From: Phycisphaerae bacterium
GTDB taxonomy: Bacteria > Planctomycetota > Phycisphaerae > UBA1845 > Fen-1342
Assembly (NCBI GenBank): GCA_017999985.1
Contig: JAGNKU010000019.1
Span: 1 to 64,000 of the forward strand
Length of the DNA: 64,000 bases
Reading direction: 5' to 3'
The notes below the pieces were generated by a model, which was not told where the DNA came from, made no database searches, and worked only from the letters and a program-made list of their open reading frames with translations. Of the stretch, positions 40,100 to 45,129 are shown in pieces. Numbering within the stretch: the stretch's first letter is position 1; each line of letters opens with the position of its first letter. The translations under genes and the position numbers were made by a program.

Positions 40100-41227
40100 A
40101 TGAACCACGCACAGACCCACACCTCACAACCACTCGCACGCAGTTTGCTGTGGCTCGTCGCGCTCGCGTTGCTGGCGAGCGCCTGGGAGGCCAGCGCCGG
40201 CAACATCAACTGGGGCAAGCAGGAGTCGCCGCGGATGTACAGCCAGTACGCCGCCCACCGGCAGCTCGTCGGCCCCGTGGATACCCACTTCATCGGGAGC
40301 CCGCCGGCCAGTTGCTGGGCCAGCCCGACGTACCTGATCGGCGGGTTTGGGCCGCCGGAGACGATCACCGCCGTACACCGGGCGCGGCACCTCGTCCCGG
40401 TGTGCCCGGGTGAGACCGCTCCGGCTCCGTGGTGGACGCCGCCGCCGATCTCACCGCCGGCGGTCAACTGGGGCACAACGTTCGCGGGTGCCCGCGGCAG
40501 CGTCATCCATCCCGGGCCGCCCAACCACGCCGACAATTTCCTGGAAGTGCTCGGCGCGGCCTACCGCTGGGGCATCCTCGGCGGCTACGCCTACGCCTCG
40601 ATCGGGTTCCACGACCCGATTTGCGAGTCACGCTGGTGCACGCTGACGGGCGACCAGGTCGTGCCGCCGGTGCCGGACCCGCCGCCGGACACGCTGCCTC
40701 GGCTGTGCATTAGCGCGGTCGCGGTCGACTCGCACCTGGGCGTGTTCGCCCTGGTGATCGTCGCTCAGAACATCGAGCCGGCGGACTTGCTGGGGGCGGA
40801 GATTCACATTGGGGCAGTTGGGGAGAACGGCCCGGGGATCTACTGGTTGGGGAGCGGCCTGGAGTGGGAGAATCTGAACGGGGACGGGCTCGCCAAGGTC
40901 GTACTGGAGGAACCCTTCCCGATGGAGTTCTATCCGGCGTTTGTCGCGGAGCAGATGTACATCTCCCTCTATACGATGGAGTACCCGGAGGGAGCCCTGC
41001 GCGGGCAATTGCTCGCCCTGCCCGTGGCCTACATCGCGGGCGACGTGAACTGCGACGGCGAAGTCAGCTTCGCCGACATCAACCCGTTCGTGCTGTACCT
41101 GTCCAACTTCGACACCTGGCAGAGCGAATATCCCGACTGCCCGCCAGAAAACGGCGACATCAACGGCGACGGCGAGTTCCCGTCGTTCCGCGACATCAAC
41201 GCCTTCGTGAGCCTGCTCTCGCAGTAG
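40100..41227 (+). CDS. Secreted CHRD-domain protein with dockerin-like C-terminus
   Basis: 375 residues. The signal peptide (cleavage near EASAG) is followed by a region with WTPPP and Cys residues. A CHRD-like domain (about 190-310) includes LTGDQVVPPVPD, GAEIHIGAVGENGPG and YPEGALRGQL, then a dockerin-like pair (AGDVNCDGEVSFADINPFV and DINGDGEFPSFRDINAFV). GGAGAATC precedes the ATG. CHRD domains are named from Chordin and their bacterial function is unknown. A strong terminator hairpin follows the stop. Confidence 0.84.
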   Translation: MNHAQTHTSQPLARSLLWLVALALLASAWEASAGNINWGKQESPRMYSQYAAHRQLVGPVDTHFIGSPPASCWASPTYLIGGFGPPETITAVHRARHLVPVCPGETAPAPWWTPPPISPPAVNWGTTFAGARGSVIHPGPPNHADNFLEVLGAAYRWGILGGYAYASIGFHDPICESRWCTLTGDQVVPPVPDPPPDTLPRLCISAVAVDSHLGVFALVIVAQNIEPADLLGAEIHIGAVGENGPGIYWLGSGLEWENLNGDGLAKVVLEEPFPMEFYPAFVAEQMYISLYTMEYPEGALRGQLLALPVAYIAGDVNCDGEVSFADINPFVLYLSNFDTWQSEYPDCPPENGDINGDGEFPSFRDINAFVSLLSQ

Positions 41228-41325: not shown

Positions 41326-41826
41326 GGCGGAGTGGGCCAGGCGACCGCTGTCGGGGCGACCCGGCAGAGGAAAGTCCGAACTGGACAGGGCACGGTGATG
41401 GCTAACAGCCACCGGGTGCGAGCCCAGGGAAAGTGCCACAGAAAAGATACCGCCGGCGGGGCGGTGGCTTCGCCACCGCCGTGACAGGGTCGAATGTAAC
41501 AAGGTGACAATGTGTGCGTCCCTCGGCTTGTTGGATGGTCCTCGGATTGCGGACGGGCTCACTCTGTTACTCTGTCACGTTGTTACCTTATCACCTCCCC
41601 GCCGGTAAGGGTGAAATGGTGCGGTAAGAGCGCACCGCGCGGCCGGTGACGGCCGTGGCAGGGTAAACCCCACCGCCAGCAAGCCCAAATAGGGGGCGAT
41701 GAGCCGGCCCGGCTCGTTACCAGCCCCGGGTAGGGCGCTTGAGCCCGTCGGTAACGGCGGGCCTAGAGGAATGGTCGCCATCCGCCTCAAGCGGAAACAG
41801 AATTCGGCTTACTGGCCCACTCCGCC
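41326..41826 (+). ncRNA. rnpB: RNase P RNA (class A)
   Basis: The catalytic RNA of ribonuclease P, which cleaves tRNA 5' leaders. The ends pair as a perfect 15-bp P1 stem (GGCGGAGTGGGCCAG, 41326-41340, with its complement at 41812-41826). The conserved core elements GAGGAAAGTCC, ACAGAAAAGATACCGCC, GGTAAGGGTGAAA, GGTAAGAGCGCACCG, GCAAGCCCAAATAGGGGG, GGGTAGG..GCTTGAG and CCTAGAGGAATG are all present in order. At 501 nt it is longer than the usual 350-420. The excess lies between the two sides of P12, at about 41462-41596, where an extra hairpin and a palindromic repeat are inserted. Confidence 0.95.
41481..41594. repeat. Palindromic insert in the P12 arm of RNase P RNA, 8-bp-period arms
   Basis: The left arm (41481-41514) reads GTGACAGG, GTCGAAT, GTAACAAG, GTGACAAT, GTG. 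The right arm (41561-41594) is, in reverse complement, GTGATAAG, GTAACAAC, GTGACAGA, GTAACAGA, GT. Arms of ~8-bp quasi-repeats separated by ~46 bases can pair and extend P12. The helix base itself is CGGCGGGG (41453-41460) with its complement at 41597-41604. Confidence 0.85.
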
Positions 41827-42156
41827 GAATTTCCCGCCCGCCGCTGTCAGAATCGCACTCCCGGAGGGATAGGCACAGTTGGAGACCTGGCCAACTGGCG
41901 CTCAGAACCACGGGTGACACTTCGATCCGCCAACTGAGCCCCAAGTGCCGAGCGTGCGGAAGCCGCGAAAGCACGGCCGCGCGCCGCTGGCCAGCGGAAT
42001 TCTAATTGAAACGCCAGGGTGCCGATCGGTATTTTGAAGTATTGGTCAGAACGCGAATCGCACGGGACCGCGTTCGGAAGGAGTGGGAAAGCTCAATTAC
42101 GGGTAGGCCGGTGGTCGCCCGCGCAGGTCGCCACTGGCGCTGCTGGAGGGTTCGCG
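41827..42156. other. Intergenic region downstream of rnpB
   Basis: 330 bases with no supported gene. TTGAAA (42006-42011) followed after 18 bases by TATTTT (42030-42035) is a possible promoter for the repeat-protein gene that starts at 42157. No clear rnpB terminator is seen. Confidence 0.4.
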
Positions 42157-45129
42157 ATGTACACGGTGACACAATTGGCTGCGCGCGCGGGGCGCGCCCG
42201 AGCTCTGCTGACCGGCTTGGTCGTATGTGGTCTGCCATTCACGACTCTGGCCCAAGTGCACATTTTCACGACGGATACGCTGATCGCCGACGGCGACACG
42301 ACCTGGGACGGCTACGACATTGTCGTGCAGGGCTGCACGGTGACGATTAACGGCGCCCATGCGTTCAACTCCGTCACGATCGAGCGTAGCGCAAGCAACC
42401 AACCCGGCACCATCACACACGCCGCCGGTTTCTCGAACGGCACGGTCAACGGCATGCACCTCACGGTGGCCGGTGACGTGCTGATCCAGGGCTCCGATGG
42501 TGCGCTCGTCGCCAGCCTGCTGACGGCTACGGCCCGCGGGTTCGGTCCGCACACGGGGCCCGGGGCCGGTGTGCTCGGTGTGAACTTCGGCAGCGGTGGG
42601 GGCTACGGTGGTCATGGGGGGCGTGCCCATGAGGGGCAGGCCGGCGGCGGCGTGTACGGCCTGTTCATGCAGCCGACCGAACTCGGCAGCGGTGGCGCCG
42701 GTGACAACGACAGCTATAACCAGCTGGGCGGCGCCGGTGGCGGAGCGGTACACCTCGTGGTGGGTGGAACCCTCACCGTGAATGGTCAATTGCGCGCCGA
42801 CGGCGGAAACGGCGCCGCCGGCACCAGCGAGTCCGCCGGTGGCGGTTCGGGCGGCAGCCTCTGGATCGAGGCGGGGGCATTGACGGGGACCGGGACCATC
42901 GCAGCCCGCGGCGGCAACGCGGGCGACGCGCGGTCCGGCGGTGGCGGCGGCGGCCGCATCGCGGTCTACTCCGATAACGTCACGTTTGGTGGCATCGTCA
43001 GTGCGTGCGGCGGTACCGGCTACGTCCGCGGCGGCGCCGGGACACGCTTCAGCAAGAGCTCGGTCCAGCTCTATGGGGACCTGCGCATTGACAACGAGGG
43101 TGCTGCCGGTGCCATCACTGACCTGCCCGCGCCGATCTCGACGATCGACGGGCTGACGGTGGCCGGCGCGGCGATACTCGACCTCCCCGGCGCCACGACC
43201 CTGACCATCACAGACCTGAGCGTCCTGACCGGCGGCGTCCTGACGCACCGGGCCGGAGAAGCCGGATTCCTAATCGATGCCGCCGGCGACGTGTACATCG
43301 CTGAGGACGGTTGCCTGAATGTGAGCGCCCGCGGATATGGCCCACACACAGGCCCCGGGGCCGGCGCGCTTGGCCCGAGTTTCGGCGGCGGTGGCGGCCA
43401 CGGCGGCTATGGCGGTAGCAGCAACGGAGGACAGGCCGGCGGCAGTGTATATGGCTCGTTCACTCAACCGGTCGAACTCGGCAGCGGCGGCGCCGGGGAC
43501 AACGACTCCTACAACGAACCGGGTGGCGCGGGCGGTGGAGCCGTACACCTCATCGTTGGCGGGACCCTCACCGTGGACGGCCAACTGCTCGCCGATGGCG
43601 GAAACGGTGAAAGCGGCTACAGCGAATCGGCGGGTGGCGGATCAGGTGGGAGTATCTGGATCGAGATGGGCTGGTTGACGGGGACAGGGACGATCGCGGC
43701 GCGCGGCGGGAACGCGGGTGACACGCGGTCCGGCGGCGGTGGCGGCGGCCGCATCGCCATCTACTGCAGCAACACCGCGTTCACGTTTGGCGGCACCATC
43801 AGTGCCTGCGGCGGCACGGGCTACATTCACGGCGGCGCCGGCTCGCGCTTCAGCAAGGCCGCGCCCCAACCGCACGGGGACCTGCTCCTTGACAACGACG
43901 GCACAGCCGGCGCGATCACGGACCTGCCGGTACCAATCCCAACCGTTGACGTGCTGACGGTGGCCGGCGCGGCGATACTCGACTTCCCCGGCGCCACTGT
44001 GTTGAGCGTCACAGACCTGAACGTGCTCTCGAACGGCATCGTGACCCATCGTGCCGGAGAGGCCGAATTCCAGATCGATGCAGCCGGTGATGTGGTTATC
44101 GCAGCGGACAGTCGCATCGATGTCAGCGCCCGCGGATACGGTCCGCACACGGGGCCCGGGGCCGGCACGCTCGGCCCGAGCTTCGGCGGCGGCGGGGGCT
44201 ACGGCGGCCACGGCGGCAGCAGCAACGGAGGACAGGCCGGCGGCGGCGTCTACGGCTCATTCATTCAGCCCGCCGAACTCGGCAGCGGCGGCGCCGGGGA
44301 CAACGACGGCTTTGACGAGCTGGGCGGCGCGGGCGGCGGAGCCATACGCCTTACCGTTGGCGGAACCCTTACCGTGGATGGCCAACTGCTCGCCAATGGC
44401 GGAAACGGTGAAAGCGGCTACAGCGAGTCGGCGGGTGGCGGCTCCGGCGGTAGCATCTGGATCGAGGCAGCCACGCTGGCAGGCACAGGCACGATCGCGG
44501 CCCGCGGCGGGAATGCGGGTGACACGCGGTCGGGCGGCGGTGGCGGCGGCCGCATCGCCATCTACACTTGCGATCAACGAGTGGATCCCGCGCAGATTGT
44601 GGTGACAGGTGGCAGCGGCTGGCAGGGAGGCGGATCCGGCACGGTGACGCACGTATCCGCTTTCATCGCCATTACCCAACAGCCGGTCGGTGGCATTGTC
44701 TTCGCCGGAGATCCACTCCAGCTCTCCATTGCGGCGGACACGACGCAGGGCACACTGACGTATCAGTGGCGCCGGGACCAGACGGACCTGAGTGATGACG
44801 GGCATTACGCGGGCGTCCAGACCGAGACGTTGACGGTCGCGGCGGCGGCGCTCAGCGACCAGGGCTACTACGACGTGTGGCTGACCGACGATTGCGGCAT
44901 GCAGCTCAGCCAGAGTGCGTATGTGATCGTCCCGCCGCCCGGCGATGTGACCTGTGACGGCGTGGTCAGTTTCGCCGATATCAACCCGTTCGTGCTCGCG
45001 CTCAGCAATCCAACGCTGTATGAGCAGCTGTGGCCGCAGTGCCGCCTGCTCCAGGCCGACTGCAACGGGAATGGCATGGTGGACTTCCGTGACATCAACC
45101 CGTTCGTGGCGCTGCTGACGGGTAAGTGA
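42157..45129 (+). CDS. Secreted glycine-rich repeat protein with Ig-like and dockerin-like domains
   Basis: 990 residues. The signal peptide (about 1-26) is followed by three long tandem units of 265-267 residues, each with a Gly-rich core (GPHTGPGAG, GGGGYGGHGG, GSGGAGDNDSYN, GGTLTVDGQLLADGGNG, GGGSGGSIWIE) and a beta-helix-like THRAGEA/TVAGAAILD part. An Ig-like domain (about 840-925, YQWRRDQTDL..YDVWLTDDCG) and a dockerin-like pair (GDVTCDGVVSFADINPFV and CNGNGMVDFRDINPFV) close the protein. GGAGG precedes the ATG. It is probably a cell-surface or extracellular structural/adhesive protein. A perfect terminator hairpin follows. Confidence 0.84.
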   Translation: MYTVTQLAARAGRARALLTGLVVCGLPFTTLAQVHIFTTDTLIADGDTTWDGYDIVVQGCTVTINGAHAFNSVTIERSASNQPGTITHAAGFSNGTVNGMHLTVAGDVLIQGSDGALVASLLTATARGFGPHTGPGAGVLGVNFGSGGGYGGHGGRAHEGQAGGGVYGLFMQPTELGSGGAGDNDSYNQLGGAGGGAVHLVVGGTLTVNGQLRADGGNGAAGTSESAGGGSGGSLWIEAGALTGTGTIAARGGNAGDARSGGGGGGRIAVYSDNVTFGGIVSACGGTGYVRGGAGTRFSKSSVQLYGDLRIDNEGAAGAITDLPAPISTIDGLTVAGAAILDLPGATTLTITDLSVLTGGVLTHRAGEAGFLIDAAGDVYIAEDGCLNVSARGYGPHTGPGAGALGPSFGGGGGHGGYGGSSNGGQAGGSVYGSFTQPVELGSGGAGDNDSYNEPGGAGGGAVHLIVGGTLTVDGQLLADGGNGESGYSESAGGGSGGSIWIEMGWLTGTGTIAARGGNAGDTRSGGGGGGRIAIYCSNTAFTFGGTISACGGTGYIHGGAGSRFSKAAPQPHGDLLLDNDGTAGAITDLPVPIPTVDVLTVAGAAILDFPGATVLSVTDLNVLSNGIVTHRAGEAEFQIDAAGDVVIAADSRIDVSARGYGPHTGPGAGTLGPSFGGGGGYGGHGGSSNGGQAGGGVYGSFIQPAELGSGGAGDNDGFDELGGAGGGAIRLTVGGTLTVDGQLLANGGNGESGYSESAGGGSGGSIWIEAATLAGTGTIAARGGNAGDTRSGGGGGGRIAIYTCDQRVDPAQIVVTGGSGWQGGGSGTVTHVSAFIAITQQPVGGIVFAGDPLQLSIAADTTQGTLTYQWRRDQTDLSDDGHYAGVQTETLTVAAAALSDQGYYDVWLTDDCGMQLSQSAYVIVPPPGDVTCDGVVSFADINPFVLALSNPTLYEQLWPQCRLLQADCNGNGMVDFRDINPFVALLTGK
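42535..44570 (+). repeat. Tandem ~0.8-kb repeat in the glycine-rich protein
   Basis: The landmark CGCGGNTNNGGNCCNCACACNGG recurs at 42535, 43330 and 44131, spacings of 795 and 801 bases. The third copy stops after the GGGGGGRIAIY block. Copies differ by scattered substitutions and by a two-residue indel, so they are diverged but clearly homologous. Confidence 0.9.

Follow-up and report, generated by a model that had tools for sequence, protein, structure and literature searches.

How does a palindromic repeat come to lie inside the gene of an essential ribozyme, and to which family of elements does it belong? The question arises at rnpB, the gene for the class A RNase P RNA, in a 64-kb stretch of planctomycete DNA (the window, by which we mean the whole stretch analysed). 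The initial annotation of this DNA read the locus as a repeat element that had been inserted into the P12 arm of the RNA and is tolerated there; a P12 arm shared by relatives, with compensatory changes, would have refuted this. The analyses described below support that reading: the extra sequence does lie in P12, the arm is not shared by the relatives compared, and its units are found elsewhere in the genome.

The host gene

The annotated class A RNA is complete: the covariance-model match to RF00010 spans the full-length model (positions 1-367) and lies above the gathering threshold, and the P1 stem is, as annotated, perfect over 15 bp (Table 1). This is the sole RF00010 match found in the genome (5.23 Mb, 98.65% complete, 31 contigs); as the only copy found in so complete a genome, rnpB is presumed to be functional, its function in the cell being inferred. 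The genes that flank it (40100-41227 and 42019-45129 of the window) carry similar CDGxVSFADINPFV repeats at their ends which, by eye, have a dockerin-like look. In one relative, G057, two places match RNase P RNA strongly (C1:1119264-1119652 and C1:2096372-2096760; 313.8 and 304.5 bits).

Boundaries and structure of the insert

Where does the extra sequence begin and end? The RNase P covariance model places it in P12, and the 41453-41604 interval annotated earlier is essentially the entire P12 arm. Finer boundaries come from an excision scan, in which stretches of 40-149 nt (thousands of them) were cut from the arm and the longest perfect hairpin that remained was measured. A 16-bp P12 hairpin (17 bp with a G-U pair) is restored only by cutting 41479-41596, 41480-41597 or 41481-41598; without any cut the figure is 9 bp, and the runner-up excision reaches 12 bp. 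The ends of the excision coincide with the ends of the octamer arrays. Together, the restored hairpin and these coincident ends indicate that P12 was a perfect hairpin before its 3' strand received the element, which now branches off to the side. One detail of the annotation has to be given up: the "extra" hairpin next to the palindrome is not extra, being the outer half of the native P12. A target duplication of at most 2 nt (CC) is possible, a reading left ambiguous by the run of C residues at the site; none longer than 2 nt is visible in the excision analysis.

Table 1. Features of rnpB and its P12 insert, in window coordinates
Feature	Position	Strand	Evidence
rnpB, class A RNase P RNA (host gene)	41329-41827	+	RF00010, 300.2 bits, E 3e-97
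P1, 5' strand	41326-41340	+	15/15 complementary to 41812-41826
P1, 3' strand	41812-41826	+	15/15 complementary to 41326-41340
P12 proximal stem, 5' strand (GCCGGCGGGG)	41452-41461	+	paired with 41597-41606
Native P12 distal half, CGGTGGC TTC GCCACCG	41462-41478	+	continuous with the proximal stem after insert removal; 16-bp hairpin
Palindromic octamer element, 118 nt, in P12 3' strand	41479-41596	+	exhaustive excision scan
Element 5' arm, units GTGACAGG, GTAACAAG, GTGACAAT	41481-41514	+	lag-8 periodicity
Element centre, without ORF	41515-41561	+	direct reading of the sequence
Element 3' arm, reverse strand GTGATAAG GTAACAAC GTGACAGA GTAACAGA	41562-41594	-	lag-8 z 4.4
P12 proximal stem, 3' strand (CCCCGCCGGT)	41597-41606	+	covariance model and excision scan

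The annotated palindrome of ~8-base units is real. GTRACAAGGTRACA occurs, at up to two mismatches, four times in the window (0.40 expected), always within the P12 arm; both arms of the element are periodic at lag 8 (z 2.8 and 4.4), and TRF reports period 8 at 41561-41586, in the 3' arm. The P12 arm as a whole folds at -78.4 kcal/mol (z -3.8); the insert by itself, at -41.7 kcal/mol (z -1.9), folds only mildly better than its shuffles.

The insert is a genomic repeat

A search of the genome for the units, proposed with the annotation, finds them at other places. The 19-nt arm segment GTAACAAGGTGACAATGTG at 41496-41514 recurs across the genome: GTRACAAGGTGACAATGTG, at up to three mismatches, has 67 places (30 forward, 37 reverse), and the reversed control pattern has none. 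These places group into 32 clusters. All ten clusters that hold both orientations present them in one order, + then -, and, when read out, follow a common arm-centre-arm plan with differing centres; solo octamer arrays are numerous elsewhere in the genome. With its terminal inverted repeats, multiple copies and lack of an ORF, the insert resembles a MITE in these features. At one locus (L075; G000:C1:607685-608694), two facing arrays of the GTGATAAG type, separated by about 1 kb, enclose a membrane-protein-like ORF on the - strand in place of a gene for an IVP (23S rRNA intervening-sequence protein).

P12 in relatives and in other bacteria

Do relatives share the arm? The comparison covers P12 of 54 rnpB genes from the order, with no same-genus genome among them. 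Within this set the element is absent from every other rnpB, and the relatives' genes have either a short P12 or unrelated repeats in its place; the outcome that would have refuted an insertion is thus not seen, with the caveat that same-genus genomes are missing from the comparison. P12 stretches of at least 70 nt occur in 18 of the 54 genes. Palindromes built of 7- or 8-mers are present in eight, the present genome included, and their units mostly differ: GTRACAAG here, GTGGGAAC/A in G002, G010 and G025, GTGAAAAC in G022, a unit of the GTCGAAAC type in G041 and G059, and GGGTTCA in G013. The remaining long P12s of the order are other palindromes or hairpins, and all others are short. Four more 7/8-mer palindromes lie in P12 among the longest rnpB genes of the class (L411, L412, L414 and L415), and several cyanobacterial P12s likewise carry 7-mer palindromes; in the IVP-bearing genomes of other phyla that were checked, P12 palindromes are not general. 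Their presence across order, class and cyanobacteria is what makes P12, judged from sequence, a recurrent landing site for palindromes, and the differing units probably reflect recurrent, independent insertions.

Other P12 inserts are of different make. G039 has a REP-like AAAAGGTGTCAGGAACC repeat (L024); one GTAGGGTGGGC palindrome is common to G021 (L125) and G049 (L117), which belong to different families; and the longest insert seen, of a different kind, is the 270-nt P12 of L410 (G372) with repeated GTGGACCATCAG units. A complete IVP element was not found in P12, the longest class-level rnpB inserts (up to 270 nt) being too short for an IVP gene. Seven relatives lack an RF00010 match, and a search of these for 5' and 3' rnpB motifs found no true rnpB half. 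G016 and G026, both of genus g17 and 96-97% complete, have neither an RF00010 match nor, at the stringency used, a conserved 5' or 3' rnpB motif; in these two the assembly may lack rnpB, or the gene may be split or have diverged strongly.

Inverted 7/8-mer arrays border IVP genes

If the insert has no gene of its own, is it related to elements that do? One octamer cluster in the present genome (L054) borders a gene for a four-helix-bundle IVP (PF05635 / TIGR02436), a connection that the initial annotation does not make. PF05635 is the only Pfam domain in the protein, and we know of no nuclease or recombinase domain in it. Inverted repeats of this kind are a regular companion of the family: for 24 of 34 IVP genes the flanking repeats exceed in strength those at any of 150 random places in the present genome, and, of 79 usable IVP loci spread over many bacterial phyla plus one archaeon, 67 reach a score of 13; among 160 mismatched-flank controls a single one does. 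Nearly all strong cases (104/108) have 7, 8 or 14 as their best arm period.

Arms and proteins also go together. Protein similarity correlates with arm similarity (Mantel r 0.26, 0/5000 permutations), and IVPs with GTRNNAAN arms form a single clade of eight rows (support 100/99, 0/500 shuffles) that includes those of the present genome (GTGATAAG), G007 (GTAACAAG), G002, G010 and G025. Loci from related genomes are not independent of one another; the correlation and the tree show that arms and gene are co-inherited, which does not demonstrate that the protein binds the arms. Two IVP elements, with arms of 7- and 8-mers, also lie inside a DnaE-type polymerase gene (PF07733, PF17657; L066:8085-12605, G000:C10, ~173-177.6 kb). 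Through both, the host frame remains open (1506 aa); the nested IVP reading frames, one of them with an internal stop, occupy a different frame. Two smaller palindromic inserts seem to be present in the gene as well.

Which of these arms resemble the rnpB insert? GTRAYAAG-type units border the IVP gene both in G007 (L103, GTAACAAG) and in the present genome (L054, GTGATAAG), and these are the two best matches to the insert among 59 IVP loci. In G002, G010 and G025, the GTGGGAAC/A unit of P12 also borders an IVP gene of the same genome. Across genomes, rnpB units match IVP arms of their own genome in excess (9.6 against 2.9 +/- 2.0 when permuted, 5/3000), in a test that was devised with the units already known and that rests on a small number of genomes. 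The stricter expectation that the top IVP match always lies in the own genome fails (0/7), since a family-wide clade has these units in common. In G007, GTNACAAG arrays are found around an IVP gene and also, more closely spaced, in pairs. As far as sequence comparison can go, the insert's units are shown to match those that border one well-supported PF05635 IVP clade, the gene of the present genome included.

Weighing the explanations

Could the arm be an old, lineage-specific extension of P12, kept for a role in RNase P such as contact with a protein or a substrate? P12 length varies naturally, the arm folds well and no same-genus genome is at hand to date the insert; yet no relative examined shares the element, its removal restores a perfect P12 hairpin exactly, and its arm sequence is that of a multi-copy genomic repeat, so that we regard this as very improbable. 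Local simple-sequence expansion would dispense with mobility altogether: the octamers would have arisen in place by slippage and template switching, with IVP genes as bystanders that attract such repeats. The arms, tandem and degenerate, and the numerous solo arrays of the genome fit this account; the 19-nt arm segment that is exactly common to other loci, the single orientation of all ten paired clusters and the way in which units track IVP clades do not, and we give it only a slight chance.

A third possibility is a conventional MITE or REP, unrelated to IVP, for whose movement an ordinary DNA transposase (e.g., RAYT/Y1) would be responsible. Inverted ends, small size and many copies are MITE-like, and a REP-like palindrome does lie in the P12 of the relative G039. 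However, the best-matching units border IVP genes, the present genome's among the best two of 59 loci, which makes such an origin unlikely; without a transposase search behind the comparison, a MITE driven by a transposase stays possible. Finally, a multi-copy repeat in a genome of 31 contigs might have been misjoined into rnpB during assembly. The P12 flanks are intact and complementary on both sides, and seven other rnpB genes of the order have 7/8-mer palindromes in P12; given these flanks and parallel cases in other genomes, an assembly error hardly merits consideration.

A probable gene-less relative of IVP elements

The insertion site, the repeat family, the absence in relatives, the recurrence in P12 and the unit match with one IVP clade are established by these comparisons, and we consider it likely that the insert is a mobile, gene-less palindromic element related to IVP genes that inserted into P12 of rnpB and is tolerated there. 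In such an element a centre of ~47 nt separates two arrays of degenerate GTRNNAAN octamers in inverted orientation; the element would have entered P12, until then a perfect hairpin, on the 3' strand, and would be a non-autonomous relative of elements that hold a PF05635 IVP gene between like octamer arms. The palindrome is inferred to move as a unit and, in the absence of an ORF, its movement must depend on something unidentified. The IVP protein may recognise the arms, as RNA or as DNA; this is an inference, for which there are no binding data. How might the RNA still work? We infer that P12 tolerates the element because the palindrome pairs with itself and branches off P12, at an arm's distance from the catalytic core. 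RNase III may then cut the hairpin and leave an RNase P RNA in two pieces that works all the same, a guess that the analogy with the Coxiella 23S intervening sequence (IVS), close in plan, makes reasonable and that we advance only tentatively. Counting against the favoured reading is the lack of a same-strain pair with and without the insert and of any same-genus genome. The missing ORF, the lack of a known nuclease or recombinase domain in IVP, the absence of any target duplication beyond 2 nt, the failure to find a whole IVP element in P12, the post hoc design of the own-genome test and the modest folding of the insert by itself weigh on the same side.

In its broadest form, which we find doubtful though worth stating, the proposal would make IVP genes with inverted 7/8-mer arrays one widespread class of prokaryotic mobile elements, the short tandem repeats (STRRs) and others like them their gene-less derivatives, P12 a recurrent safe landing site, and RNase III-cut RNase P RNA a molecule that works in two pieces, as 23S rRNA with IVSs does.

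P12 repeats in cyanobacteria and IVSs in rRNA are already known; what is new to us is an IVP-class octamer palindrome in rnpB with an exact empty site. We found no paper that makes the link, none that connects IVP genes generally to 7/8-mer arrays and none that describes IVSs in rnpB, in a literature search that left out most subscription papers. At this locus an element with exactly defined limits lies within an essential ribozyme, and three subjects usually treated apart are brought together: the short tandem repeats of rnpB, the intervening sequences of 23S rRNA and the IVPs, four-helix-bundle proteins of unknown function. Should IVP recognise the octamer arms, one could test directly what a very common uncharacterised family does, and there would be a candidate answer to where the STRR repeats came from.

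Comparison with known systems

Small palindromes tolerated inside genes are familiar from the Rickettsia palindromic elements; to our knowledge, these are of a different sequence class, are not 8-mer arrays and are not tied to IVP. With MITEs and REPs the element shares small size, palindromy, multiple copies and the lack of an ORF; it differs in that its arms are tandem octamer arrays and that no transposase partner is known (none was searched for).

Closer in position are the STRR repeats of heterocystous cyanobacteria, reportedly described by Vioque in 1997, which are said to lie in P12 of the RNase P RNA and to have unrelated units in related strains; the 7-mer palindromes noted above in several cyanobacterial P12s are what that report would lead one to expect. 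Both are short tandem repeats inside P12 of rnpB, but the unit here is 8 nt long rather than the seven bases of an STRR, so that a strict STRR is ruled out by its period. The host also differs, being taken for a planctomycete from its relatives in the tree; the empty site here has an exact definition, and the units connect to an IVP clade.

In the 23S IVS of Coxiella burnetii, an S23p ORF is preceded by tandem heptamers and RNase III cuts in the terminal stem, near the first repeat (PMC4990558). The element described here is not a full IVS: the host is rnpB, not 16S or 23S rRNA, and the insert lies in a stem strand instead of replacing a terminal loop. The insert has only 118 nt and no PF05635 ORF, which makes it at most a non-autonomous relative of an IVS; the genome's own 23S (2851 nt) has no IVS. 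What the two have in common is a hairpin-forming insert with complementary ends, placed in a helix of an essential or stable RNA, and the S23p family.
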